Positions 12,075-28,498 of a stretch of 64,000 nt of DNA are shown here, one piece after another (position 1 is the stretch's first letter; each line of letters begins with the position of its first letter). The stretch spans positions 299,001 through 363,000 of the forward strand of contig NZ_CP061080.1 of NCBI RefSeq assembly GCF_014495845.1. The letters are read 5' to 3'. The notes under the pieces are model-generated. The model had not been told where the DNA came from. It saw only the letters and a list, made by a program, of their open reading frames with translations, and searched no databases. The translations under genes were made by a program, and so were the position numbers. The DNA comes from Aquibium microcysteis (GTDB lineage Bacteria > Pseudomonadota > Alphaproteobacteria > Rhizobiales > Rhizobiaceae).

Positions 12075-12084
12075 GGACACGGCC

Positions 12085-12696: not shown

Positions 12697-12954
12697 TGAG
12701 AGCGTAGGCACAATGCCACGGCAGTGCAAAGAGCCTGCCTTCGCCTCCTAGCCGACACCACAGCGGCCTCTAAAGCCAGGCGCATACTGTGCTCGGACCA
12801 TGACACCTGTCGCAAAAGCTTGATGCGGACAGTGCAAGGAATGCGGATTCAGGCTGCATTTCTATTCGTTTGATTGACGACGACCGAGGCGCGACGATGC
12901 GAGCGAGGGTCGAGGCCCGTGCACGTGGTCGCCCTCAATCAAGGAGGCGTCGAC

Positions 12955-13650
12955 ATGCTGCACGCGCAAGACATCATGACCCGCAAGGTCGTCACCGTTC
13001 GATCGGAAAGCACGATTTCAGAGGCTGCGGCCCAGATGGTCCGTCACCGCATCAGCGCCGTCCCGGTGGTCGACGACGGTCTGCTCGTGGGGATTATCAG
13101 CGAAGGGGATCTCGTTCACCGCGCCGAAATCGGAACCGCGGAACGAAGCCGCTCCTGGTGGCTCACACTTTTCCGGGACCCGTCGACTATGGCCAAGGAA
13201 TACGCCCGGTCCCACTCCAGGCACGTCGCAGACCTGATGACCCGGACCGTCCGATCGGTGGAGGAGAAGGCGTCGGTTGAACAGATAGCGGAACTCATGG
13301 ACCGCGCCCGGATCAAGCGGGTTCCTGTGACTAGGGGCGGCGCTGTGGTCGGCATCGTCAGCAGGGCGGACCTCGTCAAGGCGATCGCGGGCGCGAAACC
13401 GGAGGATACGGATGCGCATCCGAGCGACGAGGGAATACGAACACGGCTGCTGGAGGAGCTCGGGCTTCAGCCTTGGGCAAGCGCGACACAGATCGGCGTC
13501 GAAGTGCGCGACGGATTCGTCTCTTTCTGGGGGACCGTGAACTCGGAAGAGGAACGGCGCGCTTCTCGAATCCTGGCGGAGAACCTCGCCGGCGTCCGTG
13601 GCGTCGAAGATCATCGGCTAGTGATCGATTTCCCCGCCTACGCCCTCTAG
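12955..13650 (+). CDS. tandem CBS domain protein with C-terminal BON domain
   Basis: I chose ATG 12955 (MLHAQDIMTRKVV) because AGGAGG lies 8 nt upstream. The 231-aa product has a CBS pair (about residues 5-60 and 95-150) and a BON domain (about 165-228, with VRDGFVSFWGTV and GVRGVEDHRLVI). CBS pairs bind adenosyl nucleotides and often sense energy state; BON domains often bind membranes or phospholipid. The effector is unknown. It stands alone, with 258 nt of non-coding sequence upstream. Confidence 0.9.
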   Translation: MLHAQDIMTRKVVTVRSESTISEAAAQMVRHRISAVPVVDDGLLVGIISEGDLVHRAEIGTAERSRSWWLTLFRDPSTMAKEYARSHSRHVADLMTRTVRSVEEKASVEQIAELMDRARIKRVPVTRGGAVVGIVSRADLVKAIAGAKPEDTDAHPSDEGIRTRLLEELGLQPWASATQIGVEVRDGFVSFWGTVNSEEERRASRILAENLAGVRGVEDHRLVIDFPAYAL

Positions 13651-14024
13651 CCACGTCGCGCATTCCCTCCGCGATCCCCGACGGCTGCACGCTGGGCAAA
13701 GCCGTGCGACTTTGCAAACTGCCCCGGAACGGTTATCAACGTCGTATAGAACAGAGCGTCTCCAATTGCTGTCGCATCCTGAAGGCCACATTGTCGAAAG
13801 TTTCCGCGGGCGGTTCTTCAACCACGCCGGCTGCCTCATCGCATGCATCTAGCCCTGGCGCGGCCGCGAGGCCGTCGACCGGGGGCCGGAAATCCAACCA
13901 AGCCTAAAATTCGGTTCTGATTTCCGGGTCCGCCACCGCTGGCCCGGTGGAGATGCATCATGACAGACGAAATCCATGGTCGCCCAGGCGTGGCATTCAT
14001 CTTCGTTGTCCGCGGGAGGCGGAT
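13651..14024. other. intergenic region, no gene recognised
   Basis: These 374 nt separate the CBS-BON gene from dadA. Short ORFs occur here but none has a convincing start site or family resemblance. A GGGAGGCGG site at 14015-14023 serves dadA. I saw no clear operator. Confidence 0.4.
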
Positions 14025-15278
14025 ATGAGGGTGGTCATCGTAGGAAGCGGGGTCATCGGCGTGACCTCGGCGTGGTACCTGGCTCGCGAGGGCCATGAGG
14101 TCACCGTGCTGGACCGCCAGCCCGGTCCGGCGCTCGAAACAAGCTTCGCCAACGCGGGGGAAGTATCCCCCGGCTACTCGTCTCCCTGGGCAGGCCCCGG
14201 GGTGCCGCTGAAGGCGATCAAGTGGCTCCTGATGAAACACGGGCCGCTGGCGATCCGCCCACGTCTGGATCCCGCGATGTGGTCTTGGATCCTGAAGATG
14301 CTGTCGAACTGCACCTCGCAGCGATACGCGGTAAACAAGGCACGCATGGTGCCCATCGCGGAATACAGCCGCGACTGCCTTCGCGAGCTGAGAACGACGA
14401 CCGGCATCGAATACGACGAACGGTCACATGGCACCCTGCAGCTCTTTCGCACGCAAAAGCAGCTCGACGGGATCGTCAGCGACATCGAGGTCCTGAAGCA
14501 GTTCGGGGTTGAATACACGGTCCTTGCCGCCGCGGGCTGCGTCGCCGCGGAACCCGCGCTCGAGCGCGTGAGCCACAAGTTCGTGGGGGGCCTCCGGCTT
14601 CCTGACGACGAGACAGGAGACTGTCGAGTTTTCACGGAAAAGCTTGCGGCGCTCGCGTCCGCAGCTGTCGACTTCCGCTACGGTGTCGCCGTCGACGGTC
14701 TCGTTCAGGAACGCGGCAAGGTTTCGGCTGTCCGCACGGCGAAAGATGTGTTCCCCGCCGATGCCGTTGTCATCGCGGCGGGGAGCTATTCGCCACGCTT
14801 GCTGAAGCCCATGGGCGTCCGCATTCCGGTCTACCCGGTCAAGGGCTACTCGCTGACGTTCCCGATCGCGGACGAGGCTGCCGCGCCTGTGTCCACGGTG
14901 ATGGACGAGACCTACAAGATCGCCATCACGCGGCTTGGGGACCGGATCCGGGTGGGCGGCACGGCCGAGATTTCCGGCTTCGATCTCTCCTTGCCACGCT
15001 CGCGCCGCGCACCGCTCGAACATTCGGTCGCGGACCTGTTTCCAGGAGCCGGACTCGCCAGCGAAGCCTCCTTCTGGTGCGGCCTCAGGCCGATGACCCC
15101 GGATGGCCCCCCGATCGTGGGCGCCACGTCCGTGCCGGGCGTTTTCGTCAATACAGGGCATGGCACCCTCGGGTGGACGATGGCCTGTGGTTCCGGACGT
15201 ATACTCGCCGACATCGTGTCCGGAAAGATTCCAGAGATCGACGTGACCGACCTCGGTCCTGGGCGGTACCGATCATGA
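14025..15278 (+). CDS. dadA: D-amino acid dehydrogenase
   Basis: DadA is an FAD enzyme that deaminates D-alanine and other D-amino acids to keto acids and feeds electrons to the respiratory chain. The 417-aa protein starts at ATG 14025 with the dinucleotide-binding motif [17 protein letters not shown]. The [12 protein letters not shown] segment and the C-terminal [16 protein letters not shown] are hallmarks of DadA. It overlaps alr by 4 nt, forming the classic dadA-dadX arrangement. Confidence 0.93.
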
Positions 15279-16390
15279 GCGCCGCGGCCCTGCGCGCGGG
15301 TGCGATCCTGACGGTGGACCTCGATGCGGTCGTTGCGAACTGGCGGCTGCTGTCGAAGCTGGCGGAGGGCGCCGAATGCGCCGCCGTGGTCAAGGCGGAC
15401 GCCTACGGCCTCGGCGCGGGGCGGGTCGGCGTCGCCCTTCAGGCGGCGGGTTGCAGGACCTTCTTCGTCGCCCATCTCGAGGAAGGACTCGAACTCCGGA
15501 AGGCGATCGGCTTCAGTTCGCGTGTCTTCGTCCTGAACGGCACTCCTGCGGGTACCGAAAGCGAGTTCCTCAACTCGGTCCTGATCCCGGTCGTCAACAC
15601 GGCGGGAGAACTCGCCGCCTGGCGCGATCATGCCCGGGAGAAGGGACGCAGCATGCCTGTCGCCCTCCAACTCGACACTGGCATGTCGCGCCTCGGGCTG
15701 TCGCACGGCGACGTGGCCGAGCTGGCGGGGGAGCCGATGGGCCTTAGCGGCCTCTCCGTCGAGCTGGTCATGAGCCATCTCGCCTGTGCCGACGCGCCGG
15801 CGCACCCTGCCAACGGACGGCAGCGGCGCGCGTTCGCCAAGCTCCGGACTGTTCTGCCCAGGCGGGCGGCATCTTCGCTCGCGAACTCCGCCGGAATTCT
15901 CCTGGGGCCGGAATTCCGCTTCGACCTGGTTCGGCCGGGAGCGGCGCTCTACGGGATCAACCCGGTCCCAGATGGTTCGAACCCCTTCAGGCAGGCCGTT
16001 ACGCTATCGACGCGTGTGATTCAGATCCGCGAGGTCCCAGCCGGGACAAGCGTCGGCTATGGCCACGCGCGGACTGTGGAAAGGCAAAGCCGTCTCGCGA
16101 CGCTTTCGCTCGGCTACGCGGACGGCTGGCCACGCGCCGCGAACATGTCCGCCTTCTACAAGGGTCAGGCACTGCTCTTCGCGGGGCGCGTATCGATGGA
16201 CAGCATCGTCGTCGATGCGACCGACTGCGCCAAGGCCCCTCGCGAAGGCGAGTTCGTAAGTCTCATGTGTCGAGAACAGACCGTGGACGATGTCGCCCGT
16301 GCCGCCGGCACGATCGGCTATGAGATCCTCACCCGGCTCGGCCGACGCTTCGCTCGAGACTACGGTCGCCACGCAGCGCTCGCTGCCTGA
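15275..16390 (+). CDS. alr: alanine racemase (catabolic DadX-like by context)
   Basis: The enzyme interconverts L- and D-alanine with PLP. The 371-aa protein starts inside the dadA stop codon. The PLP lysine lies in [10 protein letters not shown] (about residue 36) and the second catalytic tyrosine in SVGYGHA (about residue 264); [11 protein letters not shown] is the usual C-terminal motif. Coupling to dadA points to a catabolic role, turning L-alanine into the DadA substrate. Confidence 0.93.
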
Positions 16391-16441
16391 TCCGCGCCAT
16401 CGCGGCAACACTCACGACCAAGCAATATCAATGAAGGAAAC

Positions 16442-17710
16442 ATGATGGCTGAACACACCCTGCTCGATGACGCGCTGATCCGCCTCGACGAAGCCGCGGC
16501 TCACCTGAGCATCGATCCCGACGTGATCGAGAAGCTGAAATACGCCCGCGAGACCACCAAGGTCAGGCTGATGATCCGCATGGACGACGGATCGCGGAAA
16601 TCGTTTTTGGCGTGGCGCTGCCGCTACGACGACACACGCGGACCGACGAAGGGCGGCATCCGCTTCCACCCGGCTTCGACCGCAGAGGAAGTCGAGACGC
16701 TCGCTTTCTGGATGACGTTCAAGTGCGCGGTGATGAACCTGCCCTATGGTGGCGGCAAGGGGGCCGTCCAGGTGGATCCGCGAACTCTGTCCAAGGCGGA
16801 GCTCGAGAGGCTTTCCCGCGCGTACATCCAGGCGTTCGCACGCATCATCGGACCCGACCGGGACATACCCGCGCCGGACGTCTACACGAACTCCATGATC
16901 ATGGGCTGGATGGCCGATGAGTACGCGCAGATCGTCGGCCAGCACCAGCCTGCGGTTATCACCGGGAAGCCGATCGCGCTCGGCGGCTCCCTGGGACGCA
17001 GCGACGCCACCGCGCGAGGCGGCTACTATCTCGTGAGACATCTGACATCGGACCTGCAACTCGACGAGACGATGCGGGTGGCGATCCAGGGCTTCGGCAA
17101 CGCAGGGCAGCATATCGCGCGGCTGCTTGCCGCGGACGGCCACAAGATCGTCGCCGTATCGGACTCCGAGGGAGCGGTCTTCTCCGCAGCGGGCCTGCAT
17201 GTCGACCTGCTCATCGACGCAAAGGCCAACGGAAGATCCGTTTCCAGCACCGCCGGAACCGGCGGCCACGAGCGGGCGGGGCCGGACGAGCTTCTTGCGG
17301 CCGAGTGTGACCTGCTCGTTCCCGCGGCATTGGAGAACATGATCCACGAGGGAAACGCCGGAACGGTCAAGGCGAAGCTCGTGCTTGAACTCGCCAACGG
17401 CCCCCTCACGGCGGAAGCGGACGAAATCCTGCAGGCAAACGGAACCGTCGTGCTTCCCGACATCCTGGCGAACGCAGGAGGGGTCACCGTCTCCTACTTC
17501 GAATGGGTCCAGAACCGACAGGGCTTCTACTGGCCAGTCGAGGAAATCCACGAGCGGCTGCGGACGATCATGGAACGCGAAGGACGCGAGGTCTGGAACG
17601 TCAGCAGGAGCAAACAGGTTACGATGCGCACCGCGGCCTATGTCCACGCGCTCGGCCGTCTCGCCGAGGCGATCGAGGCTCACGGCACCCAGAGCTTCTT
17701 CACCAGCTGA
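16442..17710 (+). CDS. gdhA: Glu/Leu/Phe/Val dehydrogenase (glutamate dehydrogenase type)
   Basis: This 422-aa enzyme reversibly deaminates an amino acid, most likely glutamate, with NAD(P). It contains PTKGGIRFHP, the catalytic lysine region YGGGKGAV, PAPDVYTN and the Rossmann-fold start VAIQGFGNAGQHIA. The NAD/NADP preference is not clear. It follows alr by 51 nt, so D-/L-alanine and glutamate breakdown may be coregulated. ATG 16442 and ATG 16445 are both possible starts. Confidence 0.9.
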   Translation: MMAEHTLLDDALIRLDEAAAHLSIDPDVIEKLKYARETTKVRLMIRMDDGSRKSFLAWRCRYDDTRGPTKGGIRFHPASTAEEVETLAFWMTFKCAVMNLPYGGGKGAVQVDPRTLSKAELERLSRAYIQAFARIIGPDRDIPAPDVYTNSMIMGWMADEYAQIVGQHQPAVITGKPIALGGSLGRSDATARGGYYLVRHLTSDLQLDETMRVAIQGFGNAGQHIARLLAADGHKIVAVSDSEGAVFSAAGLHVDLLIDAKANGRSVSSTAGTGGHERAGPDELLAAECDLLVPAALENMIHEGNAGTVKAKLVLELANGPLTAEADEILQANGTVVLPDILANAGGVTVSYFEWVQNRQGFYWPVEEIHERLRTIMEREGREVWNVSRSKQVTMRTAAYVHALGRLAEAIEAHGTQSFFTS

Positions 17711-17741: not shown

Positions 17742-18485
17742 TTGAACCTGCTGCTCACCCGTCCCAAGGCGCAGGCTGCCGCCATGTCGGAGGTTCTGGA
17801 GCGAAGAGGGCACAGTGTCCATCTCGCGCCTCTGCTGCAGGTGGATCCCCTGCCATTCGACGGCAGGACCCTCGGGACAGCCTCGGCGATCATCCTCACC
17901 TCCGCCAACGCGGTGCCTGCGCTCGAGGGTCTGGATCCGGGGATCCGGGTTTTCGCGGTAGGTCCCGACACGGCATCGGCCGCGAGGGCTGCGGGCCTGT
18001 CGAACATCGTGGCCGCTTCCGGCACGGCTGGAAGCCTGCTCGAAATGGTCAGGCACCACTGGCGGCCGGAGTATGGGCCGTTGGCATATCCCAGCGGCCG
18101 CCATGTCTCGGTGGATGTCGCGGGAGCGCTTGCGGCGCAGGGCTACAGCTGCGGGCGGGTGGAAGTCTACGCTACCTCCCAGGCCCGGCAGCTGCCCGAG
18201 GAAGCGAAGAACCTCCTGCGACGCGGACAGATCGACGCCGTGCTGTTCATGTCGGTGCGGACAGCGGATGCATTCTGCGGACTGGTCGCGTCGACGGGCA
18301 ATTCCGAAGTCTGCAGGAGGGCGAGGTCCCTGTCGCTGTCGGACAAGATCGCCACTCGGCTGGGGCAGCTGCCGTGGATCGAGTCCCTCACGGCCGCCTC
18401 GCCGACAAGGGAAGGAATCCTTCGCGCGGTCGACGGGCTGGAGACGGGTCACGGCGCAGAAGGATTCCGGCCTTTACCCCGCTGA
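17742..18485 (+). CDS. hemD: uroporphyrinogen-III synthase family protein
   Basis: HemD closes and isomerises the tetrapyrrole ring. This 247-aa protein has the family pattern: LLLTRPKAQAAAMSEVLERRG at the start, ILTSANAVPAL and FAVGPDTASAARAAG in the first domain, and an equivalent second half with VLFMSVRTADAF. It appears to use a TTG start at 17742, 7 nt after GGAG. It is not next to other heme genes, so it may be a second copy or a paralogue. Confidence 0.78.
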   Translation: MNLLLTRPKAQAAAMSEVLERRGHSVHLAPLLQVDPLPFDGRTLGTASAIILTSANAVPALEGLDPGIRVFAVGPDTASAARAAGLSNIVAASGTAGSLLEMVRHHWRPEYGPLAYPSGRHVSVDVAGALAAQGYSCGRVEVYATSQARQLPEEAKNLLRRGQIDAVLFMSVRTADAFCGLVASTGNSEVCRRARSLSLSDKIATRLGQLPWIESLTAASPTREGILRAVDGLETGHGAEGFRPLPR

Positions 18486-18533
18486 CGCCGCGGGCCGGAG
18501 GGCACCCGGACTGCCGGGCGCGCTCCGCAGAAA

Positions 18534-19775
18534 TCATGGGAACAGCAGGATCCGATCGTCGCATCCCTCGCTGAGATGCGTGGACAGTCCGAGCTGGCCC
18601 AGCAGCCCGAGGAAGGGTCGCGGCGGCAGCTCTTCCACGTTCGCCATCCTGCCCACGTCCCAACGGCCAGTGGCGACCAGGATTGCCGCGGCCACGGCCG
18701 GCACACCTGCCGTGTACGAGATGCCCTGGCTCCCGACCTCTTCGCAGGCCTCCTCGTGATCGGCGACGTTGTAGATGAAAATCTCGCGCTCGCGGCCGTC
18801 CTTCACGCCTTTTGCAAGGGTGCCGATGCACGTCTTGCCCGTGTAGCCGTCAGCCAGTGACGACGGGTCCGGAAGCACCGCCTTCACCACCTTGAGCGGA
18901 ACGACATCGACGCCCTCCGCCGTGGTGACGGGCTTTTCGGACAGTAGACCCAGGTTCTTCAGGACATTGAAGACGTTGATGTAGTGATCGCCGAAGCCCA
19001 TCCAGAAGCGGACGTTCGGGATGTCAAGCAACTGCGACAGGGAATGCACTTCGTCATGCCCGGTCAGGTAAGCCTTCTGCCGCCCGACCACGGGAAGTTC
19101 CCACTCCTGCCCGACCTCGAACATCCGGTTGGAGGTCCACTTCTCCTCCTGCCATGACCAGACCTGCCCGGTGAACTCCCGGAAATTGATCTCCGGGTCG
19201 AAGTTCGTGGCGAAGTACCTCCCGTGGCTGCCGGCGTTGATGTCGATGATGTCGAGCGAGTCGATCAGGTCGAAATAGTCGTCCTTCGCGAGCCGCGCGT
19301 AGGCGTTCACGACACCTGGATCGAAACCTGCACCGAGGACGGCGGTCACGTTGGCTGCGGCGCATTCCTCGCGGCGCTTCCACTCGTAGTTCTCGTACCA
19401 GGGCGGGGCCTCGCACACCTTGGCGGGGTCTTCGTGGATCGCGGTATCGATGTAGGCGGCGCCTGTCGCGATGCAGGCCGAGAGCACGGACATGTTCACG
19501 AATGCCGAGCCGACATTGATGACGATCTGCGCGCCTGTTCGCCGGATCAGGTCTTCGGTGGCTGCGGTATCGAGCGCGTCCAGCTGGTGGGCCTCCAGTT
19601 TGCCCTCGGCGTTCAGCACGTTCTTTTCGCGGATCGACGCGATGATCGCCTCGCACTTTTCCAAGGTCCGGGAGGCGATGTGGATGTCGCCGAGGATGTG
19701 GTTGTTCTGCGCGCATTTGTGCGCGACGACCTTCGCTACGCCGCCCGCGCCGATAATCAGGGCATGCTTTTTCAT
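18534..19775 (-). CDS. carboxynorspermidine/carboxyspermidine dehydrogenase (saccharopine dehydrogenase family)
   Basis: The enzyme condenses aspartate semialdehyde with a diamine and reduces the product to a carboxylated triamine. ATG 19775 (MKKHALIIGAGG) gives 413 aa; the Rossmann motif IIGAGGVAKVVAHKCA starts the protein. LGAGFDPGVVNAYARLA and DIIDINAGSHGRYFATNFD match this subfamily rather than lysine-forming enzymes. It lies 38 nt downstream of the cognate decarboxylase gene, which fixes the assignment. With putrescine as substrate the pathway yields spermidine. Confidence 0.9.
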   Translation of the reverse strand: MKKHALIIGAGGVAKVVAHKCAQNNHILGDIHIASRTLEKCEAIIASIREKNVLNAEGKLEAHQLDALDTAATEDLIRRTGAQIVINVGSAFVNMSVLSACIATGAAYIDTAIHEDPAKVCEAPPWYENYEWKRREECAAANVTAVLGAGFDPGVVNAYARLAKDDYFDLIDSLDIIDINAGSHGRYFATNFDPEINFREFTGQVWSWQEEKWTSNRMFEVGQEWELPVVGRQKAYLTGHDEVHSLSQLLDIPNVRFWMGFGDHYINVFNVLKNLGLLSEKPVTTAEGVDVVPLKVVKAVLPDPSSLADGYTGKTCIGTLAKGVKDGREREIFIYNVADHEEACEEVGSQGISYTAGVPAVAAAILVATGRWDVGRMANVEELPPRPFLGLLGQLGLSTHLSEGCDDRILLFP

Positions 19776-19813
19776 TTCGGGGAGGGTGCTCCTTCCTTGC
19801 TTGGATGAGGATT

Positions 19814-20911
19814 TCACGAGAGGCTGGATTCGTAGTCGGCGTAGCCGAACTCGCGGACGGTTCGGATGGACCCGTCGAGTTCGCGCACGGCAATGGAGGG
19901 CATCGCCACGCCGTTGAACCAGTTCTTCTTCACCATGGTGTAGCCAGCCGCGTCCTGGACCGAGACGCGGTCGCCGACTTCGAGCGGGGCCTGAAAGCGG
20001 AAGCTGCCGAAGATGTCTCCCGCCAGGCAGGACTTGCCGCAGACCATGTATTCGAAGGGTCCGGTGTCAGGCGCGATCCTGGCATCCTGCCTGTAGATCA
20101 GCAGATCCAGCATGTGCGCTTCGACCGAGGCGTCGACGATCGCCAGCTTCCGGCCGTTGTCGAACGTGTCGAGCACCGTCACTTCGAGCGTCGCGCTGTC
20201 GGTGATCGCGGCCTCGCCTGGCTCGAGGTAGACTTGGGCGCCGAATTTCTCGGAGAAGCGCCGCAGGCGTTCGCACAGCGCGTCCAGCGGATAGCCGTCT
20301 GCTGCAAAGTGGATGCCGCCGCCCAGGCTTATCCAGTCGGCGTAGTGCAGCAGGTCGCCGTACCTCGCTTCGATCCGGTCGAGCATCTGGGAAAACAGCG
20401 CGAAGTCGCCGTTCTCGCAGTTGTTGTGGATCATGAAGCCGTTGATCCGGTCGAGGACGGCTTCGATCCTGCCCGGGTCGGTTTCGCCGAGGCGACTGAA
20501 CGGACGCGACGGATCGGCAAGATCGAAGTGCGACGCGCTGATGCCCGGGTTGAGCCGAAGCCCGCAGGCGAGGCCGCCCACGCGCGCGCCGAAGCGATCA
20601 AGCTGGCCGATCGAGTTGAAGATGATCTTGTCGGCAAGCATCGCCGCTTCGTCGATCTCGTGGTCAGCCCAGGCGACGCTGTACGCGTGGGTTTCGCCTC
20701 CGAAGCGGGTTCGCCCAAGCCTGACCTCGTTAAGCGAGGAGGAGGTCGTGCCGTCCATGTAGGGGCGCATGAAGTCGAACACGCCCCAGGCCGCGAAACA
20801 CTTCAGTGCAAGCAGCGCCTTCGCACCGGACTTCTCGCGCAGGTAGGCGATCCGCTCGAGGTTGCGGAGCAGCCTGGACTTGTCGATGAGATAGTGCGGG
20901 GTCTTCGTCAT
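19814..20911 (-). CDS. nspC: carboxynorspermidine/carboxyspermidine decarboxylase
   Basis: NspC removes the carboxyl group to yield norspermidine or spermidine. It is a 365-aa alanine-racemase-fold PLP enzyme. The PLP lysine is in LLALKCFAAWGVF (about residue 36); the C-terminal GKSCLAGDIFG carries the active-site cysteine. ATG 20911 overlaps the stop of the upstream gene by 4 nt, so translation is probably coupled to the unknown 282-aa protein. Confidence 0.93.
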   Translation of the reverse strand: MTKTPHYLIDKSRLLRNLERIAYLREKSGAKALLALKCFAAWGVFDFMRPYMDGTTSSSLNEVRLGRTRFGGETHAYSVAWADHEIDEAAMLADKIIFNSIGQLDRFGARVGGLACGLRLNPGISASHFDLADPSRPFSRLGETDPGRIEAVLDRINGFMIHNNCENGDFALFSQMLDRIEARYGDLLHYADWISLGGGIHFAADGYPLDALCERLRRFSEKFGAQVYLEPGEAAITDSATLEVTVLDTFDNGRKLAIVDASVEAHMLDLLIYRQDARIAPDTGPFEYMVCGKSCLAGDIFGSFRFQAPLEVGDRVSVQDAAGYTMVKKNWFNGVAMPSIAVRELDGSIRTVREFGYADYESSLS

Positions 20912-21756
20912 GGCTGGCCCTTGCCTTTCCGGATTGCCGACATCTTCAGCGGATCGACCACGGCGAGGCCGAGCGCCCGCCTCTTCATCGCGCGCGCCGC
21001 CAGAGACACGTTGACCGAAACCTTCGCCGCGTAGGATTCGGCGAAGGACCGGAGCGGGATGTCGGACGGTCCCTGCCTCATCCCAGGGGAGCGCTCGGAG
21101 AACCTGTCGGGAGCAGGGTGGAAGCGACCGTCGGCGACAGTCCCGATCCACTCGCAGACGTGGTCCTCCGGCTCTCGCAGCCGGGCGAGCAGTTCCAGAT
21201 ACCCTTCCTGGAGCGCAGGCGTGTCTTCCCGCCTGCTTGCGCATGACAGACGGTGGAGCTCGCAGGCGAGCGCGTGGGCGTCGCGCCGCGGCTTCCGCCA
21301 GTAGACGCGCCTGCCATCAGCTACATCCAGGTACTCGTCGGCCGCGGCGATCGGGATTGCTTCCGCCGCATGCGCGGCGAACAGCATCAGCGGATCCGCG
21401 CAGCCGCCGTCCGGAAGATCATCTTCGCCCGGTCGGAGGCCGCGAGGACGGAACTCAAGGAGCTTCGTCAGAGACGCGGAAACCTGCCGGCTTCCCGCCG
21501 ACACGGCAGCCGCGTCGGTGAGGCCAAGTCCAGCCACCTTGTGGAGTGCGTGCGCGATCGCCAGCCTGATGCCGGCTTCCGTCCCGTGACATCGTTCGAC
21601 GGGTGCGAATCCAGCCGTCGAACGCGCGCGGAACAAGGCGTCGACAATCTCCCGAGCCATGGCTACGTCGCATTCCAGCGCATCCGCGATTCCGAGATCG
21701 GTCTTCATCTTTTCATGCCAGGCAATCTCGCGGCAGGCATCGACCTTCGCCATCAT
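20908..21756 (-). CDS. unknown protein between a PtsN-like gene and nspC
   Basis: This 282-aa protein starts at ATG 21756, overlapping the ptsN stop by 4 nt, and ends overlapping nspC by 4 nt. I recognise no family. There is no signal peptide or membrane helix. The N-terminal 110 residues are helix-rich and alanine-rich; the middle has AADEYLDVADGRRVYWRKPRRDAH; the C-terminal end is basic (ARAMKRRALGLAVVDPLKMSAIRKGKG). Its tight coupling suggests a role in polyamine synthesis or its control, possibly as a partner of the EIIA protein. This is inference from context. Confidence 0.75.
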   Translation of the reverse strand: MMAKVDACREIAWHEKMKTDLGIADALECDVAMAREIVDALFRARSTAGFAPVERCHGTEAGIRLAIAHALHKVAGLGLTDAAAVSAGSRQVSASLTKLLEFRPRGLRPGEDDLPDGGCADPLMLFAAHAAEAIPIAAADEYLDVADGRRVYWRKPRRDAHALACELHRLSCASRREDTPALQEGYLELLARLREPEDHVCEWIGTVADGRFHPAPDRFSERSPGMRQGPSDIPLRSFAESYAAKVSVNVSLAARAMKRRALGLAVVDPLKMSAIRKGKGQP

Positions 21757-22280
21757 CTGAACCCCGCCCGTCTTGGTGCTTCCGCCCCCGTCGAAGGAGG
21801 CGGGATTGCAGTTGGTGATTGCTGGGCGACGCCGTCTGAAGCCCCAAGGCATGTGAGGACCCCGTCAGACGAAAGAGCGCTTCGGATTCGTTTGAGGACG
21901 TCCGGATTCGACAGCTTGCGACAGAAGCGCGCCACCGCGGGCGAGAATTCACCGCCACGTTCCCGGGGCCAGATAACCGCAAGCACCACGTCGACAGGCT
22001 GTTCATCGGGAGCCCGGAACCAGACCGGGCGGTCAAGGATCGCAAGCGTCGCAGCAGGCGCCCGGAGCCCGGTCAGAAGGGCGTGAGGAACGGCTATGCC
22101 ATGTCCGATACCAGTAGAACCGAGGCTTTCCCGGTTCAGAAGCGCCGCCAGGACCGTCTCCTCAGGTGCGCCGGCCCGGGCAGCCAGGCGGCCGGATAAC
22201 GTCCTGAGCAGTGGCCGTCTTGCCTGTGCCGGCTCTCGGACGTGAATGTCCCGCAGATGCAAAAGATCGAGAATATCCAT
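21753..22280 (-). CDS. ptsN: PtsN-like EIIA domain protein (nitrogen-type PTS)
   Basis: EIIA(Ntr) proteins are phosphorylated on a histidine by NPr and regulate target proteins by binding. This 175-aa protein starts at ATG 22280 behind GAGGAGG. The phosphorylation site region is GIGHGIAVPHAL (His about residue 66). The C-terminal tail after TCLGASDG is an extra 25 residues with no clear structure. It is the first gene of a four-gene polyamine operon instead of following rpoN-hpf, so it is probably a second, specialised copy. Confidence 0.85.
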   Translation of the reverse strand: MDILDLLHLRDIHVREPAQARRPLLRTLSGRLAARAGAPEETVLAALLNRESLGSTGIGHGIAVPHALLTGLRAPAATLAILDRPVWFRAPDEQPVDVVLAVIWPRERGGEFSPAVARFCRKLSNPDVLKRIRSALSSDGVLTCLGASDGVAQQSPTAIPPPSTGAEAPRRAGFR

Positions 22281-22462
22281 GATGGCCTCCTCGCGCCGGC
22301 CCAACTGCCGAGGCGGTCGCGCCCGGGCGATGGGCGCGAAGTGGATGTCTGTTGTTTGAAGCCTGGCTGACCCGGACGCTGAGCCAGGGGTCAGATCGCG
22401 TCCGGGTCAGGATCCCGATTTGAGGAGCCGTGCTCCACTGGGGGAAACGAACTGCGGCAGGA

Positions 22463-23020
22463 TCAGCATGGGCCGATCCCGGCCGTTCCGGCCAGCGGCG
22501 CGGACCCTGACAGGCGGCGGTCGTCCCGAGCTGGGATGACGCGTAGCGGCTCGTCCGGGTCTTGAACTGTCGCGCCCGACATGACGGAAGCGAGCAGCTC
22601 TGCAAGTCCGGAATCGGCTGCCAAAGCCCGTGCCTCGCTCAAGGGCATCCACCGCCTCAGGACCTTCGTTTCGTCTGGCCAGTTGACCAAGGTGCCCCAC
22701 ACGTGCAGTCCGAATACGGTCACCTCGCAGGAGTCCTTCCGGCCGTCGGCAAGGGTGAGGGTGGTGAGGAAGCGCCCGACCGGTGCCGGTGCAAGCCGTC
22801 CGGTGACGCCTGCATGCTGGAATGCAGCCCGCTCGGCCGCCCGAAACTCCGTTCTCGTTCCGGAACGGGGGCCGCTGGGGACGGTCCACCGCTTCTCCTG
22901 CCGTTGCCGAATCAGCAGGACCTCCATCGTTCCCTCGCCACTCATGCGCCACGGAAGCGCCGCGTACTCGGCTCGGTACGATGCCTCGGCGACGGTCTGA
23001 CTTGCCAGCCCGGCGGTCAT
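22463..23020 (-). CDS. Nudix-fold protein with a degenerate Nudix box
   Basis: The 185-aa protein resembles the rhizobial Nudix proteins related to diphosphoinositol-polyphosphate phosphohydrolases (start YAALPWR, then MEVLLIRQRQEKRWTVP). In the Nudix box the REXXEE core reads RAAFQH (within AERAAFQHAGVTG), and the usual PKGW loop reads PSGP. The metal-binding glutamates are therefore missing and hydrolase activity is unlikely. The 3' half (EVTVFGLHVWGTLVNWPDE) is intact, which argues for a retained binding role. ATG 23020 was chosen because it starts the conserved region. Confidence 0.75.
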   Translation of the reverse strand: MTAGLASQTVAEASYRAEYAALPWRMSGEGTMEVLLIRQRQEKRWTVPSGPRSGTRTEFRAAERAAFQHAGVTGRLAPAPVGRFLTTLTLADGRKDSCEVTVFGLHVWGTLVNWPDETKVLRRWMPLSEARALAADSGLAELLASVMSGATVQDPDEPLRVIPARDDRRLSGSAPLAGTAGIGPC

Positions 23021-23199
23021 TGCCGCACCACCTGCGCGGCCGTCGAGCCTAAAGTGCGGGCGAAGGAATGGAAGAGGTTCCGAGATGGCTCGACCATCGT
23101 CGACAGGCACCAAGGACACCTGTTTGCTGCTCTCGGCAGCGAGCGGTTACATGGAAGGCATATCAGCCGGACATGGGAGGTTCTCATCATACGCTCCAT
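23017..23199 (-). CDS. small zinc-ribbon protein, copy A
   Basis: This 60-aa protein starts MERMMRTSHVR and contains CLPCNRSLPRAANRCPWC, a CxxC-x10-CxxC zinc ribbon. It overlaps the Nudix-fold gene start by 4 nt, so the two are probably cotranslated. A close paralogue of nearly the same length lies at 24336-24521. The 5' flanks of both copies also align (about 23265-23365 and 24590-24690). No known family; a nucleic-acid or protein-binding role is possible. Confidence 0.65.
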   Translation of the reverse strand: MERMMRTSHVRLICLPCNRSLPRAANRCPWCLSTMVEPSRNLFHSFARTLGSTAAQVVRQ

Positions 23200-23519
23200 C
23201 GATGCGGCGCATCAGGCCGCAGGAGTAGACCGCAATGTATTCGATAATTCCCGGAGCAGGCTTAGGTGCGGGATTCAGGGTGAGGCAACATGCTCCGGGA
23301 AGGGATGCGCCCGTTCCCGGTAAGCCTCGACACCCTGATGAAATTCTCCATGCACATGTCGCATATGTAAGCTCACGCTGTGGGCTTTCCGAGGTGACAT
23401 TATGCCGCCCGTGCTACGGTTGCTATCGCACAACACGTTGGATGTGTTCGCTTGGGTCGCGACCCGGGCGGACCAAGCAACCTCACATCCGGCGTTGCCC
23501 TGTGAAAACGGGCAAGGCA
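23200..23519. other. intergenic region with a duplicated flank
   Basis: About 100 nt at 23265-23365 resemble 24590-24690 (shared blocks include AAGCCTCGA, CCTGATGAAA and TGCACATG). As both lie upstream of the two zinc-ribbon genes on the minus strand, they may hold a shared promoter or regulatory RNA leader. No longer ORF was recognised. Confidence 0.45.
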
Positions 23520-23645
23520 ATGCCGCGGCGATCGCCACGACGAAAACATCCGGTCGCGTTCGACGCGATTGACGACGGATACGTCGAGCTGCTGCTCGAC
23601 CTCCTGTGGCCGAGCAGCTTGGGAGCGCTCCTTCACTTCCTGTAA
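23520..23645 (+). CDS. possible 41-aa small protein
   Basis: This short ORF encodes an arginine-rich start (MPRRSPRRKHP) followed by an acidic-to-hydrophobic helix (VAFDAIDDGYVELLLDLLWP). There is no strong ribosome site. It resembles no family I know. It could be a real small gene in this run of small stress-type genes or chance. Confidence 0.25.
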   Translation: MPRRSPRRKHPVAFDAIDDGYVELLLDLLWPSSLGALLHFL

Positions 23646-23827
23646 TAATGGACCGAGTGACCCGTCGGCAAAGCCACCGGAATGTCTCCGCAGGCGGCCT
23701 CGCGGGCCGAAGCCCGCCCGGGTTACTCGCCCTCGCGCCGATCGGAGCAGGCCATTTGGACTGATCCGGCATCGGGACGTGGTGAGAGCGGAGCGCTCTT
23801 TCCTAGCCGATCTTCAGTACTGAAGGA

Positions 23828-24127
23828 TCACGGCACCCGGTCGTTCGCGACGATTCCTCCTTCGCCCTCCAGGCGAGCGATCCGCTTCGCCTCCGATTCC
23901 GTGAACTTCAGCCGAACGCCAATTCCGCCGCCGTTCTCGTCGATGAACACCGCGCCGAGCTCTTCCAGCGCCGTCTTGAGCGCGTCGATGGTTCTGTCGT
24001 CCGGCTTGTCAAGCTTGCGTTCGAAGTCTTGGATGACGGTCTCATCGATGCCGGAACGGATACAGAGTTTCCCGCGGGTGATCTCTACGAGCGCTCTTGC
24101 CGCTCGACACTGTGACCCGGTTATCAT
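23828..24127 (-). CDS. XRE-family helix-turn-helix regulator
   Basis: This 99-aa protein starts at ATG 24127 behind AAGGAGGACAGC. The helix-turn-helix begins ITGSQCRAARALVEITRGKL, and the C-terminal end has FIDENGGGIGVRLK, a pattern common in small alphaproteobacterial XRE regulators. It is a single-domain protein with no ligand domain. Neighbours on both sides are small stress-type genes; the target is unknown. Confidence 0.85.
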   Translation of the reverse strand: MITGSQCRAARALVEITRGKLCIRSGIDETVIQDFERKLDKPDDRTIDALKTALEELGAVFIDENGGGIGVRLKFTESEAKRIARLEGEGGIVANDRVP

Positions 24128-24335
24128 GCTGTCCTCCTTCGTTTCCTTGTGGCCGGCAGTCTTCTCCCCGCGCTCTCTAGTTGCAATGGAGACGCGGGAT
24201 CGGCTGGTGACGGTGGCGAGCCATCGGAGGGCTCGCGGTAACGTATCTGCGAGCAATTCCGATGCAGCGTCGAACGCTTTCCTTTGGTCGTGCGCCTAGC
24301 AAGAGGTCGCTTGTCCCCAAGCAGGTCGCCGCGCT

Positions 24336-24521
24336 TCATGACAGCCTCGGTGCCATGTTGCGCCCGCGCGGATCGCGGTGCGGGATCGGTCGGTCCAGCA
24401 GCGCCGCCGGCACGACGATTGAATCGATGCACCACGGGCAACGGGACGCCGCTCTCGGAAGGGATCGGTTGCAGGAAAGGCAGACGCGCTTCGACCGGAA
24501 TATTCTCATGTCACGCTCCAT
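24336..24521 (-). CDS. small zinc-ribbon protein, copy B
   Basis: This 61-aa protein starts MERDMRIFRSKR and contains CLSCNRSLPRAASRCPWC. It is a paralogue of the 60-aa protein at 23017-23199: the MER start, the NRSLPRAA core and the total length match, while the C-terminal third has diverged. Conservation limited to the cysteine core argues that both copies are expressed proteins and not chance ORFs. Confidence 0.65.
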   Translation of the reverse strand: MERDMRIFRSKRVCLSCNRSLPRAASRCPWCIDSIVVPAALLDRPIPHRDPRGRNMAPRLS

Positions 24522-24740
24522 CGTGCGGCGAGATGGCGCCGCGGGAATGAACCGCATTGTCGGGGGTAGTGCCGGAGCAGGGCGTTGCATGCGGGATTGA
24601 GGGTTGGACTGCCCGCTCCGGCGAAGGATTCGGCCTGTCCCGACAAGCCTCGAAATCCTGATGAAAGTTTCAGTGCACATGGCGATATTTTACCTGCCTG
24701 CCTCTCGAGACTGCGTGCCTTCGCCGGAGGCTTGTTTCGT

Positions 24741-24815
24741 TCAGATCACCAAGAACGCGATGATCATCATGCTGAGAAGCCCTACGGCCACGATCGTCCT
24801 GGTCGTCATATCCAT
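24741..24815 (-). CDS. 24-aa single-helix membrane peptide
   Basis: This very short ORF has a strong AAGGAGG site 5 nt before ATG 24815. The product MDMTTRTIVAVGLLSMMIIA... is one hydrophobic helix with a short charged N-terminus. It lies 12 nt after the DUF1127 gene on the same strand and is probably cotranscribed with it. The strong ribosome site and helix pattern are the only evidence. Confidence 0.55.
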   Translation of the reverse strand: MDMTTRTIVAVGLLSMMIIAFLVI

Positions 24816-24826
24816 CTCTGCCTCCT

Positions 24827-25117
24827 TCACTGGTATCGGGCTGCCCTCAGGAGCCTGGCGGCATGCGCCGAGATCCGGGCGTCCTGCGTCGAGGTCTCGA
24901 TGTTCGAAGGGACGAGGCCTGCGACGACGCGGGGGATGTCGTTTCGCGAGATCCCGATGTCTTCCAGCTGCCGGTCGTCGAGGCGATGGAGCGCCGCGGC
25001 CGCCTGGCCGCGATGCCAACGCTGCGCCGCGCGGGAGATGAGATCCGCTACTGTCGCGCGAAAACCCGCGCGAGGGGATGATGCTGGATGGGTTCCTGAT
25101 CGCTTGAATTCGGACAT
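24827..25117 (-). CDS. DUF1127 domain protein
   Basis: This 96-aa protein starts at ATG 25117. The C-terminal half has the DUF1127 signature WHRGQAAAALHRLDDRQLEDIG followed by ISRNDIPRVV (quoted in two parts). Small DUF1127 proteins in other alphaproteobacteria act in phosphate/carbon metabolism and RNA turnover; some have the YjiS-type motif only. Here the N-terminal 45 residues are a longer extension with no recognised domain. Confidence 0.85.
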   Translation of the reverse strand: MSEFKRSGTHPASSPRAGFRATVADLISRAAQRWHRGQAAAALHRLDDRQLEDIGISRNDIPRVVAGLVPSNIETSTQDARISAHAARLLRAARYQ

Positions 25118-25243
25118 GATTGCCGCTCCGTTCACAAAGTTGATCGAGCCGCGCGCGCAAGAATGCGAAGGCGGCGTGCATGGCAACGGGTGCGTTCGCG
25201 TGAGGAGCGCGCCGTCGCGATATGCTCTGATTGTCTTCTTGGA

Positions 25244-25286
25244 AGCCCCGAGGCGGCGAACGCGTGCGTTCGAGCCGCTCGGGGCT
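25244..25286. repeat. 43-nt inverted repeat (hairpin)
   Basis: The arms 25244-25257 (AGCCCCGAGGCGGC) and 25274-25286 (GCCGCTCGGGGCT) pair with one bulge; the inner part is the palindrome GAACGCGTGCGTTC. It lies 127 nt upstream of the DUF1127 start. There is no T-run on either side, so an RNA structure, operator or processing site is as likely as a terminator. Confidence 0.6.
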
Positions 25287-25533
25287 AGGAGCGGGTCAGG
25301 GATGGCGCTAGGAAAGCAAACCAGTTGTTTTCTTGGATGAAGTTCAACATAGCAAATATATAATCAATTCAGAGAGATATTTCAACAGACAAAGGTCGAG
25401 TGCGGCCTTGCGTCGCTGCTTGTCTTCGCCTAATTATGTTTGACTTTATTTTTAACTTCGTCATGATGTGGGCCATGACTAGAATTCCTTCATACGGACT
25501 TTCCTTCCGTAGGCGGCCCAAAGCAGGCTTGTA
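25287..25533. other. AT-rich intergenic region
   Basis: 25335-25385 and 25430-25460 are markedly AT-rich (for example CAAATATATAATCAATTCAG). This is a likely promoter region for one or both flanking transcripts. No gene was recognised. Confidence 0.35.
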
Positions 25534-25567
25534 GCCCTGGTCCGCGGCGAGCGCCCAGGACCAGGGC
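25534..25567. repeat. perfect 10-bp inverted repeat
   Basis: GCCCTGGTCC (25534-25543) and GGACCAGGGC (25558-25567) form a stem with a 14-nt loop. It sits 94 nt upstream of the 40-aa lysine-rich protein gene. No T-run follows, so it may be an RNA leader structure or a protein-binding site. Confidence 0.5.
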
Positions 25568-25660
25568 TATCCTTTCCATAGATCGAAACATTCCCACCGA
25601 CGGGGCTCGAGCGTTCAGACGCGGCCCGGGCGGTGGGACATTGGAAGAAGGAATGCCGAA

Positions 25661-25783
25661 ATGGCGACAAGAAGAGGCAACCGCGAGGTCCGCAAGCCGA
25701 AGCAACCCAAGGAGAAAAAGGCTCAGGCTGCGTCGACAGTGTCGGCGATCGCCGCGCCGGGACCTGGAGCAAAGCGGCGTTAG
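25661..25783 (+). CDS. small lysine/arginine-rich protein
   Basis: This 40-aa protein begins at ATG 25661, 8 nt after AAGGA. It starts MATRRGNREVRKPKQPKEKK, followed by an alanine-rich tail. Similar short basic proteins are common in rhizobia, from memory of the general pattern. No function is known; the basic N-terminus suggests nucleic-acid contact. Confidence 0.6.
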   Translation: MATRRGNREVRKPKQPKEKKAQAASTVSAIAAPGPGAKRR

Positions 25784-25873
25784 CGTTCCGGAACGGGCAG
25801 GGCCGCGCGAATGCTGCCCTGCCGCCCCGCCGATGTCTCCGGATCGTGATCCGGGGACATGCCGTCAGTCCGT

Positions 25874-26623
25874 TCACGCCACGAGCCTCCAGAAGAACGC
25901 CGCGCTCATCGCGACGCCGACCGCGATGACTCCCGCTCTCACCATCCACGCAGGTAGGGCCCTTGCGACAGGTGCGCCGAGGTAGCCGCCAAGCGTAGCG
26001 GCCGCCATCATCACCACCGCTTGCGGCCAGGCCACGAGGCCAGCTGCCGCGAACGTCGCGACGGAGATCGCCGACACGATGAAGGACAGGCCGTTCTTCA
26101 GCCCGTTCATCTGGTTGAGGTCGCGCATTCCCCAGAGCGAAAACAGCGCAAGCAGCATGATCCCGAGACCACCGTTGAAGTAACCGCCGTAGATTGCGAC
26201 GGCGATGGTTCCGACGTGTCCGGCAGCACCGGCTCCGACGGCATGCTTCTCCATCACGTTCTTGAGGCGGTCGCCGAACGCGAAGACGAACGTGGCCAGC
26301 GCCAGAAGGAACGGAACCACGGCCGCAAAGGCTTCGTTGGAAGACACCAGAAGCAGCAGCGATCCGACAAGACCGCCCAAGGCAGTGGCTGCGGTGGCCT
26401 TCAACAGGCGGCTCCGGTCGAATGCCCGGATTTCCCTACGAAAGCCCGCCGCCCCGCCAAGATACCCCGGAAAGACGGCGACGGCGCTGGTCGCAGTGGC
26501 GGCCACCAGCGGCACGCCCGTGTAGACGAGGGCGGGGAAGGTCAGGAACGTGCCTCCGCCCGCCACCGTGTTCAGCATGCCTGCGAGGAAGGCCGCAACG
26601 GCCAGCAGCAGATACTCAGTCAT
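25874..26623 (-). CDS. TSUP (TauE/SafE) family membrane permease
   Basis: TSUP proteins move sulfite, sulfonates or other organic anions. The 249-aa protein has about eight hydrophobic helices and the family repeat starting FLAGMLNTVAGGGTFLTFPAL, with the related second repeat YGGYFNGGLGIMLLALFSLWG. A second TSUP gene lies at 54247-54987. The substrate is unknown. Confidence 0.88.
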   Translation of the reverse strand: MTEYLLLAVAAFLAGMLNTVAGGGTFLTFPALVYTGVPLVAATATSAVAVFPGYLGGAAGFRREIRAFDRSRLLKATAATALGGLVGSLLLLVSSNEAFAAVVPFLLALATFVFAFGDRLKNVMEKHAVGAGAAGHVGTIAVAIYGGYFNGGLGIMLLALFSLWGMRDLNQMNGLKNGLSFIVSAISVATFAAAGLVAWPQAVVMMAAATLGGYLGAPVARALPAWMVRAGVIAVGVAMSAAFFWRLVA

Positions 26624-26653
26624 CGTGTGCTTCTCGAGTTCACGACGCTGCCG

Positions 26654-27196
26654 TCATGCAGCCGAAGGGCCGGGATCGTCGAACCCGTCCGGGGAGACGG
26701 CGACGAGCGGTTCACGATCGTAGAACGCGCCGCGGATCAGTCTCAGCGAAGGTTTGCCGGGAGCTTGTCCAATCGAGTGTCTCTCCAGGGCTTCCTTTTC
26801 CCGTCGTGCCGCTTCCGGCTGGTAGTGGACCTTCTCGAGCAGAATCCGCTCTTCGATACCGTCGCTGTTCGTGAACACGAAGTGCTCGCCCTCGGCGAGA
26901 CCGAGAAGCGCCAGCCCGCGCAAGGTGGTGACGGGCAGGAACATCCCGACCGGAGACGTCATCCGGTCGTGCGAGATGATCCTGGTATCGGGATCGCGCC
27001 CGTTCACACTGAACGTGACGCGGCTGCTCATGGTGGCGACATCGTCCGGAACGTCGTCGCGGAACATGACGATGGCGGATTCGAGCTTCCGCTTGAGTAT
27101 CGGCGCGAGCGGATCGTCCTTGCCGAGGCAGCGGTCGCGCATGACCTCGACGATCGTGAAGTCCTTCGTGGTGAGGATGCAGGTTTCTTTTGACAT
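26654..27196 (-). CDS. Rnk/GreA-GreB C-terminal domain protein, copy 1
   Basis: This 180-aa protein starts at ATG 27196 (MSKETCILTTKDF). After a short helical region it has the FKBP-like GreA/B domain (VTFSVNGRDPDTRIISH, then GMFLPVTTLRGLALLGLAEG). That is the architecture of the nucleoside diphosphate kinase regulator Rnk, which binds RNA polymerase. The C-terminal 50 residues are an extension not seen in Rnk. Confidence 0.82.
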   Translation of the reverse strand: MSKETCILTTKDFTIVEVMRDRCLGKDDPLAPILKRKLESAIVMFRDDVPDDVATMSSRVTFSVNGRDPDTRIISHDRMTSPVGMFLPVTTLRGLALLGLAEGEHFVFTNSDGIEERILLEKVHYQPEAARREKEALERHSIGQAPGKPSLRLIRGAFYDREPLVAVSPDGFDDPGPSAA

Positions 27197-27342
27197 CGTA
27201 GTTCTCCATTGCTCCGCCTGGGAGCGGGAAAGTCGGGACGAAGTGGAGAACCCCTGGCCGCGCGGGTGCGGCACAGGGGGCTACGAGCCTGCGATGAGAC
27301 ATCCTCCGTAAAGCGAGAGGCGGCTGAGGGGCACCGACATGG

Positions 27343-27786
27343 TCATGCCGTCCGAAGTTCCGGCTGCGGCCGTGGCGGTCGTGCGACATCGTTCTGTCCA
27401 ACGTGCTCGACGGTCAGCCTGTGGACGCGGCCGTCGCGCGACGTCCAGTCGATCGACTGCGAGGCGGACAGGCCGATCAGGGCCGCGCCGATAGGCGTCA
27501 GGACCGAGACCTTGCCCATGGCGATATCTGCCTCCCCAGGGAACACAAGCGTGACGGTCCGGTCTTCGCCCGTGTCGGTGGTGAACCGCAGCGTCGAGCC
27601 CATGCGGACGACGTCGGCTGCGATGCGCCTGTCCTCAACCACGCGGGCGCGGTCGAGTTCGGCGAGGAGCTGATCGGACATATCCGGATCCCTGGCAGCG
27701 CGGGATTCCGCAAGACGCGACAGGCTCAAATGGTCGGAGCGAGTCATCGTGATGGCAGGCTTGCGCCCGCCCGTGGTGGTGGCCAT
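27343..27786 (-). CDS. rnk: Rnk/GreA-GreB C-terminal domain protein, copy 2
   Basis: This 147-aa protein has a short N-terminal helical hairpin (LSRLAESRAARDPDMSDQLLAELDRA) and the GreA/B domain with VRMGSTLRFTTDTGEDRTVTL and VSVLTPIGAALIGLSASQSI (shown as separate fragments). It is a better Rnk match than the adjacent copy. The pair lie 146 nt apart on the same strand; both may tune transcription under stress. It starts at the ATG of MATTTGG or at the internal MTRSDHL. Confidence 0.8.
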   Translation of the reverse strand: MATTTGGRKPAITMTRSDHLSLSRLAESRAARDPDMSDQLLAELDRARVVEDRRIAADVVRMGSTLRFTTDTGEDRTVTLVFPGEADIAMGKVSVLTPIGAALIGLSASQSIDWTSRDGRVHRLTVEHVGQNDVARPPRPQPELRTA

Positions 27787-28498
27787 TTCAAAACTCTTTC
27801 AAGATTATCCAACCGCGCCGCAACAGGCGGCGAACGGCTGAAGGATTGTATGTGTGGATTGGTTTGTCGCTGTTCCTACATCGCCGCGTTTCGCAGCGCG
27901 TGTAGCCCTATGCCCCGCGGCCGGGGCGCGACGCGACCGAGCCGGGGGTTAGGTGCCCGCGATAGGGAATGCCCGTTCAAGCGGGAGGAGGCAACGATCA
28001 GTCAACATGCGGGAGAACGTGGGACACCCTAGACATAAAGTCAAGCTGGGCGAATTCCTGCATCGCACAGGACCTGTCAGATGCCCGCCGCTGCCGCGAC
28101 GGATGCTTGACAAGCATGGCGAGAACGCCCACCTCATCAGGTATGACCAGCGTCTTCCCCATCGGCGGAATTCTCTTCAGGGTGTGCCCCATCGCGGGCA
28201 ACTAGCCCCCGGTCGGGACGCGTTGCGCCCGGCTGTGGGGCGCAACGCTGGTGGCGGCCGATCGACGCCGCGCAGGCAATCTCTTTTTCTCAAATGATGA
28301 TCAGGACCGTCGACACGCCTTGGGCGCGGGGCGGTTATCGCACGACGTAGGCCGGAAACGGATCCGTCCCGACAAGCGGCTCAAGCCGCTGATCGCGCCG
28401 ACGCGCGACAAACCGGACGCGCATCCGCGTCCAGCGATCTCCCCGCGCACTCAGAACAGCGCGCCGAACAGGCGCAGAATTGAAGATTGGACAGTCTC
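27787..28498. other. 712-nt intergenic region
   Basis: Between rnk and homospermidine synthase no convincing gene was seen. A minus-strand ORF around 27998-28174 (MGKTLVIPDEVGVLAMLVKH) is possible but lacks a ribosome site. The region must hold divergent promoters for rnk and hss. Confidence 0.35.

Follow-up and report, generated by a model that had tools for sequence, protein, structure and literature searches.

Why would a PtsN-like EIIA and a 282-aa protein of an orphan family (hereafter UNK) be encoded together with the two enzymes of carboxy(nor)spermidine metabolism, the decarboxylase NspC and the dehydrogenase CASDH? This question is raised by a locus of Aquibium microcysteis located in the window, i.e. 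the whole stretch of 64,000 nucleotides (nt) analyzed here (contig NZ_CP061080.1, positions 299,001 to 363,000). The four genes (EIIA, UNK, nspC and CASDH) lie on the minus strand, the first three overlapping by 4 nt and 4 nt and the last one following after a 38-nt gap; their coordinates, frames and spacing are exactly those given in the initial annotation of this DNA, which had seen in this pairing the best candidate for an undescribed regulatory unit. The present analysis revealed an additional feature, absent from that annotation: a leader made of a short open reading frame (ORF) and a hairpin, located at 22469..22362 between a NUDIX-like gene and EIIA. Comparison of sequences among relatives showed that this leader marks nspC, UNK and the EIIA paralogue, together and apart. 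Since the same leader precedes nspC, UNK and EIIA at separate loci, these genes appear to belong to a leader-marked regulon that extends beyond a gene neighborhood. We estimate at about 0.6 the probability that Rhizobiaceae (a family taken here and below in the broad GTDB sense) have a regulon controlled by this leader, of which the four genes represent the copy in the window.

The leader and the genes that it precedes

A covariance model of the leader (R1; 18 sequences, 116 positions) was run over 394 genomes of the family and matched 48 genomes at E <= 0.01, with 30 strong hits in 28 genomes at E < 1e-6. In 25 of these 30 strong hits, the leader precedes EIIA, UNK or nspC: the first downstream gene is (i) EIIA followed by UNK (n = 9), (ii) EIIA alone (n = 5, four genera), (iii) UNK followed by nspC (n = 2), (iv) UNK alone (n = 1) or (v) nspC (n = 8, six genera). 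The remaining hits precede genes encoding S4-domain pseudouridine synthases (n = 4) or a universal stress protein (n = 1, about 360 nt away). The hits are partly clustered by genus, g104 providing three of the four pseudouridine synthases and g108 three of the eight nspC. Eighteen of the 30 hits lie outside the R1 alignment, and 13 of them precede EIIA (n = 5), EIIA-UNK (n = 2, close kin of the training rows) or nspC (n = 6). One lone leader-marked EIIA (L100) was known before the R1 search, which recovered five more blind; L093 and L098 are two of the nspC loci with a leader. R1 also matches before UNK in all three pAt-type plasmid stretches, and the same leader was found in four loci with UNK-nspC behind it (L010, L014, L032 and L108) and in one with UNK alone (L033). 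Over 224 genomes of the order, R1 gave two weak hits outside the family (25.0 and 26.6 bits).

The leaders associated with S4-domain pseudouridine synthases are found at loci L177, L178, L181 and L183 (genomes G175, G234, G362 and G245); in G245, the leader occupies the slot behind gdhA that UNK fills on pAt plasmids. A weak R1 match elsewhere in the window (25475-25583, plus strand, 18.9 bits, E 8e-4) is probably due to chance.

Across relatives, the leader comprises 18-20 codons and a hairpin, often with a pseudoknot, and its peptide ends with GARLLKAGx-stop in one group and mostly with REPxRLKAGx-stop in the others. As in leader-peptide attenuators, a conserved short ORF and a hairpin adjoining its end were found by sequence: start and stop are both in place in 29 of 36 further elements (30 of 37, window included), counts that are biased since some of the leaders had been selected with a pattern requiring K/P-[ATS]-G. 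Third codon positions are the most variable ones, and Gly, Arg and Pro codons change synonymously: over eleven codons, the 11 rows of the window's group have summed differences of 2.35, 2.24 and 4.36 at positions 1, 2 and 3, and 24 other rows have 4.32, 3.49 and 5.94 (G214 and pAt2 being dropped from this table). Pairs of the hairpin are kept at 97.4% over 38 elements, a value raised by the selection of the best 3′ arm in each element, compared to a mean of 90.2% and a maximum of 94.2% when arms are swapped among elements; pair 5 is G-C in 26 elements, A-T in six and G-T in six. A loop complement of at least 5 nt to the sequence 3′ of the hairpin, allowing a pseudoknot, is present in 26 of the 38 elements, compared to a mean of 3.3 and a highest count of 12 in shuffles. 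Judging from these patterns, coding and RNA signals are both present in the leader. Furthermore, TTGAC and TAnnnT motifs about 16 nt apart were seen by eye in several loci, the leader start codon lying 6-8 nt behind them; therefore, in these loci (the window excepted), the message may begin at the leader start codon.

Readthrough of the leader stop into EIIA was considered and rejected: the frame is open in the window, differs in L003 and is closed in L005, so that readthrough is not conserved.

The four genes, their order and their history

The window EIIA matches PF00359 (EIIA_2) with 70.3 bits, above the gathering cut-off of 27, and TIGR01419 (the PtsN equivalog) with 84 bits, under the cut-off of 138.7. 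In the EIIA tree, from which three long rows were dropped (c_L082, P_L013 and c_L089), a 100/100 branch splits 18 leader-marked EIIAs (12 before UNK and six alone) from 18 EIIAs taken as canonical PtsN on the basis of their score, the best in these genomes. The leader-marked EIIAs therefore constitute a paralogue line. The His motif is kept in all 36 EIIAs of this tree, and the phospho-His in all 13 UNK-linked EIIAs. The genome of A. microcysteis, a single 6.1-Mb contig, also encodes one HPr, one EI-type protein and a second, higher-scoring EIIA, regarded as its canonical PtsN. Both enzymes align to carboxyspermidine/carboxynorspermidine enzymes across nearly their full length: NspC matches TIGR01047 with 385.3 bits over residues 3-362 (under the NCBIfam cut-off of 409.05) and PDB 3mt1 with 599 bits, and CASDH matches NF043000 (carboxynorspermidine synthase) with 448.9 bits (under the cut-off of 800) and PDB 8deb ("Carboxyspermidine dehydrogenase") with an E value of 4.5e-89. 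They are thus assigned by homology as carboxy(nor)spermidine enzymes.

UNK has no family match in Pfam, NCBIfam or PHROGs. Its matches to solved structures by sequence are weak, the best one (8vd6, E 6e-4) covering 33 residues of the N-terminal region, where a candidate helix-turn-helix may be located. It has no significant Foldseek match, including to CvkR, which is described as a MerR-type repressor (structure 7xn2, PMC9938897) and was not recovered with a second structure model either. The search for the 282-aa family that had been called for in the initial annotation matched 14 of the 394 family genomes and 21 plasmid records; in named contigs, it gave 12 loci, from Mesorhizobium, Aquamicrobium, Aliihoeflea, Tianweitania, Pseudaminobacter and others. 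Protein searches retrieved at least 54 relatives at E <= 1e-3 (first search) and at least 62 at E <= 0.1 (second search). A search of the order matched four of 397 genomes, of which two (G000 and G067) belong to the window's family; a match in G751, outside the family, looks like chance. Genome G523 carries what looks like a very distant UNK relative (L106 1869-2840, 323 aa); an integrase-like frame and a SocA_Panacea gene lie close to it, in a stretch that resembles a mobile island. An EIIA-UNK fusion was also considered in P0055, where PF00359 lies ahead of UNK-like sequence; since this sequence appears by eye to be frame-damaged, it was not used as evidence of fusion.

The gene neighborhoods were laid out for 18 UNK loci (the window, L003-L014 and L029-L033). 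Seven of them (the window, L003, L007, L008, L009, L013 and L031) harbor the complete order EIIA-UNK-nspC-CASDH, and two more carry it in incomplete form: L029, with a truncated nspC and no CASDH, and L030, with CASDH in pieces. The initial annotation had regarded the link as fortuitous should no other genome keep the four genes together and no shared transcript be seen; the full order in these seven loci and the dN/dS values given below indicate that the arrangement is more than chance. Nevertheless, its composition is not fixed, which speaks against a strict four-gene unit: (i) EIIA is missing before UNK-nspC-CASDH in L011, L014 and L032, before UNK-nspC in L108, and in L010, where UNK-nspC run to the contig end and an EIIA remnant precedes UNK (by eye), and (ii) nspC is missing behind EIIA-UNK in L004, L005, L006 and L012, UNK being split over two frames in the latter. 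L033 has UNK alone, in the order UNK, Gre-like, NUDIX, and pT173e of Ensifer canadensis carries one further UNK-nspC-CASDH. A full nspC is present elsewhere in the genomes of L004, L006, L012 and L033, as is a second copy in that of L030; none was found elsewhere in the L005 genome. In a partial control, all of the best 30 nspC loci from 151 family genomes have CASDH and none has EIIA or UNK (flanks <= 1.5 kb), this control omitting six lower-scoring genomes with nspC beside UNK (G000, G105, G062, G067, G129 and G133). On the three pAt-type plasmid stretches, UNK is flanked by gdhA on one side and a NUDIX gene on the other, and no nspC is among the genes listed; two of these stretches also have rnk and a GreA/GreB gene in the vicinity.

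Pairwise ratios of nonsynonymous to synonymous substitution rates (dN/dS) are 0.16-0.49 for EIIA (six pairs), 0.19-0.35 for UNK (eight pairs) and 0.02-0.10 for nspC and CASDH: EIIA and UNK are under purifying selection, laxer than that acting on nspC and CASDH. In a tree of NspC and CASDH (40 rows, seven NspC rows being dropped: L131, L134, L149, L144, L138, L146 and L151), the 12 UNK-linked rows include groups of eight and three, each 100/100, and L031 is near the eight. A single clade of UNK-linked rows was rejected (log-likelihood 109 lower, p-AU 0.0002), which means at least two changes: UNK joined nspC-CASDH more than once, or was repeatedly lost, or the enzymes were replaced beneath UNK, three histories that are indistinguishable by the tree. 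Overall, the proposal that EIIA, UNK and carboxyspermidine synthesis belong together is borne out by their order in several genera, the distribution of UNK-linked nspC-CASDH over more than one clade and the common leader of all three gene types at separate loci.

Table 1. Features of the locus and of its surroundings (positions in the window)
Feature	Position	Strand	Remarks
Leader ORF (upstream ORF, uORF), 20 codons, MLILPQFVSPSGARLLKSGS then stop	22407..22469	-	start overlaps stop of NUDIX-like gene
Conserved hairpin, 5′ arm CCCGGACGC, loop of 18, 3′ arm GCGTCCGGG	22371..22406	-	begins directly after leader stop codon
Likely pseudoknot	22362..22388	-	loop CCTGGC (22388-22383) with GCCAGG (22367-22362)
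ptsN-like EIIA paralogue	21753..22280	-	175 aa; PF00359 E 2.1e-19; phospho-His in GIAVPH
UNK, orphan family	20908..21756	-	282 aa; possible N-terminal helix-turn-helix; C-terminal motif SVNxSLAARxMKRRALGLxV
nspC, carboxy(nor)spermidine decarboxylase	19814..20911	-	365 aa
CASDH, carboxy(nor)spermidine dehydrogenase, saccharopine dehydrogenase-like	18534..19775	-	413 aa
NUDIX-like gene directly upstream	22463..23119	-	Nudix box degraded (by eye)
Gre-like protein, conserved neighborhood	26654..27274	-	window copy without Pfam match
Rnk-like protein	27343..27786	-	Rnk_N and GreA_GreB domains
Glu/Leu/Phe/Val dehydrogenase, convergent flank	16442..17710	+	

In many loci, the genes are flanked upstream by Rnk, Gre-like, TauE/SafE transporter and NUDIX-like genes and downstream by HemD, GDH, Alr and DadA. 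Since Rnk and Gre-like neighbors recur, UNK accompanies transcription-stress genes as well as polyamine synthesis. The Gre-like relative of L033 has a GreA_GreB match below the cut-off (E 0.016), and an rnk-like gene adjoins nspC in four loci without UNK (L094, L152, L184 and L186). The conserved neighborhood also includes a small protein (24827-25186, minus strand) that presumably resembles DUF1127 proteins. The catalytic box of the NUDIX-like neighbor was compared by eye in the window, L003-L008, L010-L012, L029, L031, L033, L109 and L111: nine loci, including that of the window, have a degraded box (e.g., AERAAFQHAGV), L033, L109 and L111 have another degraded form, and L010, L011 and L031 have an intact one (REAFEEAG), so this neighbor is possibly a pseudoenzyme line. 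In L029 (genome G105, 9503-17235), phage-like frames and an integrase (PF00589) come after the truncated nspC, which looks like the result of an element inserting into the operon.

Proposed mechanism and alternative explanations

How could such a leader act? A ribosome translating the leader ORF would pause near its end, and, since the hairpin starts at the stop codon, its 5′ arm would lie under the ribosome footprint; through this footprint, pausing would decide whether the hairpin and pseudoknot form and hence set the level of downstream expression. Since NspC and CASDH make spermidine or norspermidine, the most natural signal would be the polyamine pool. EIIA would feed in the state of the phosphotransferase system (PTS) phosphorelay (EI, HPr and the second EIIA of the genome), with UNK as its likeliest contact partner. 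The triamine level would then follow two inputs, the leader in cis for the ribosome/polyamine state and EIIA for the phosphoenolpyruvate (PEP)/nitrogen state. In a more specific form, which we put forward only tentatively, the leader (REPxRLKAGx-stop and pseudoknot hairpin) would be an arrest peptide sensing polyamine or ribosome state and coordinating spermidine synthesis, the EIIA paralogue, UNK and the pseudouridine synthase as one regulon. If true, an arrest-peptide regulon would join phosphorelay signalling to triamine homeostasis.

Several points weigh against a leader-controlled regulon. All the evidence is comparative. No leader was found by R1 before UNK in L011 and L013, nor any match at E < 0.01 before nspC in L126-L154 and L094-L097. 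Five of the 30 strong hits precede other genes, so that the signal need not be polyamine, and downstream genes are known for two of the 26 weaker matches (E 1e-6 to 0.01). In the window, the leader fold has a modest advantage over shuffles (z -1.73, with 12 of the 200 folding equally well), and a scan of 22200-23300 found no promoter- or terminator-like site. Furthermore, the absence of EIIA from several UNK-nspC loci weighs on the putative partnership of EIIA and UNK. It also weighs on the explanation favored by the initial annotation, namely that nitrogen/carbon status governs triamine synthesis through EIIA, which would contact UNK or NspC directly. The phospho-His common to all UNK-linked EIIAs, the single HPr and single EI-type protein encoded in the genome and the reported interaction of both PtsN1 and PtsN2 of R. 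leguminosarum with KdpD (PMC3665714) would fit such a contact. However, in six leader-marked loci EIIA is accompanied by neither UNK nor nspC, and we consider this explanation rather unlikely.

Other points bear on the ORF itself. In seven of the 37 elements, the start (G308) or the in-place stop (G214, two pAt rows, G349, G209 and G245) is lost, suggesting that the peptide may be less important than the hairpin. Most hairpin pairs are invariant in the 18-row alignment. Of the 36 anchored elements (the anchor including Lys itself), 35 have AAA as the Lys codon, vs. 12 AAA and 71 AAG in eight genes of the window; this bias is a constraint at the nucleotide level, for which a pure peptide model gives no reason. 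These lost codons, the fixed AAA and the almost invariant hairpin with its compensated exchanges are what would be expected if the leader were a structured RNA, i.e. a protein- or ligand-bound hairpin and pseudoknot whose ORF is incidental or secondary. However, most elements retain the start and have a stop immediately ahead of the hairpin, with synonymous Gly, Arg and Pro changes and a maximum of variation at third positions, and a structured RNA of this type is unlikely in our opinion. Finally, plain inheritance of a neighborhood, in which EIIA and UNK would hitchhike with Rnk, Gre-like, TauE, NUDIX, GDH, Alr and DadA without regulatory tie to nspC, would agree with a conserved region extending well past the four genes and with the EIIA-UNK pairs devoid of nspC, but is improbable given the same leader at separate EIIA, UNK and nspC loci in other genera, the scattering of UNK-linked nspC-CASDH over more than one clade and a decay that seems linked (split UNK without adjoining nspC in L012; Lys codon and stop of the leader lost in L030, whose CASDH is in pieces).

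Relation to known systems and biological significance

SpeFL, TnaC and SecM are arrest peptides. Another case, leaderless trpL/peTrpL of Sinorhizobium meliloti, is described as a leader-peptide attenuator (PMC10117765). Like such attenuators, the leader reported here combines a very short ORF with an RNA hairpin at once after it and precedes a biosynthetic operon; like that of leaderless trpL, its start codon would lie near the 5′ end in several loci, judging from a promoter-like pair seen by eye. Unlike them, it encodes an unrelated peptide and is shared by separate loci of at least three gene families. The speF element (Rfam RF00518), reported before ornithine decarboxylase in alpha-proteobacteria (PMC1273637), likewise lies 5′ of a polyamine gene, and in the same bacterial class. 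It differs by the gene that it precedes and by its length (about 400 nt), and the leader has no match in Rfam: none was obtained at E up to 1 in positions 18000-28000 of the window, and the three sub-threshold matches in ten further loci do not fall on it. The casdc-casdh genes of S. meliloti (SMb21631-SMb21630), a predicted two-gene operon (PMC13293326), encode the same two enzymes and are described, in the available part of that source, without mention of EIIA or UNK. PtsN/EIIA-Ntr and the window EIIA have in common PF00359 and the phospho-His, whereas the latter scores below TIGR01419 and belongs to a separate line. EIIA-Ntr and (p)ppGpp have reportedly been the subject of a study in Caulobacter. 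No paper on this leader was found in the open-licence PMC literature.

The setting of the triamine level in rhizobia and their relatives is little known. A common and searchable leader makes it possible to map the regulon, offers a sensor that can be tested and opens a first way into the orphan UNK family. Polyamine-sensing uORFs are known from eukaryotes; should the leader read polyamines via the ribosome, bacteria would possess a counterpart to them in logic, with a phosphotransfer input in addition.

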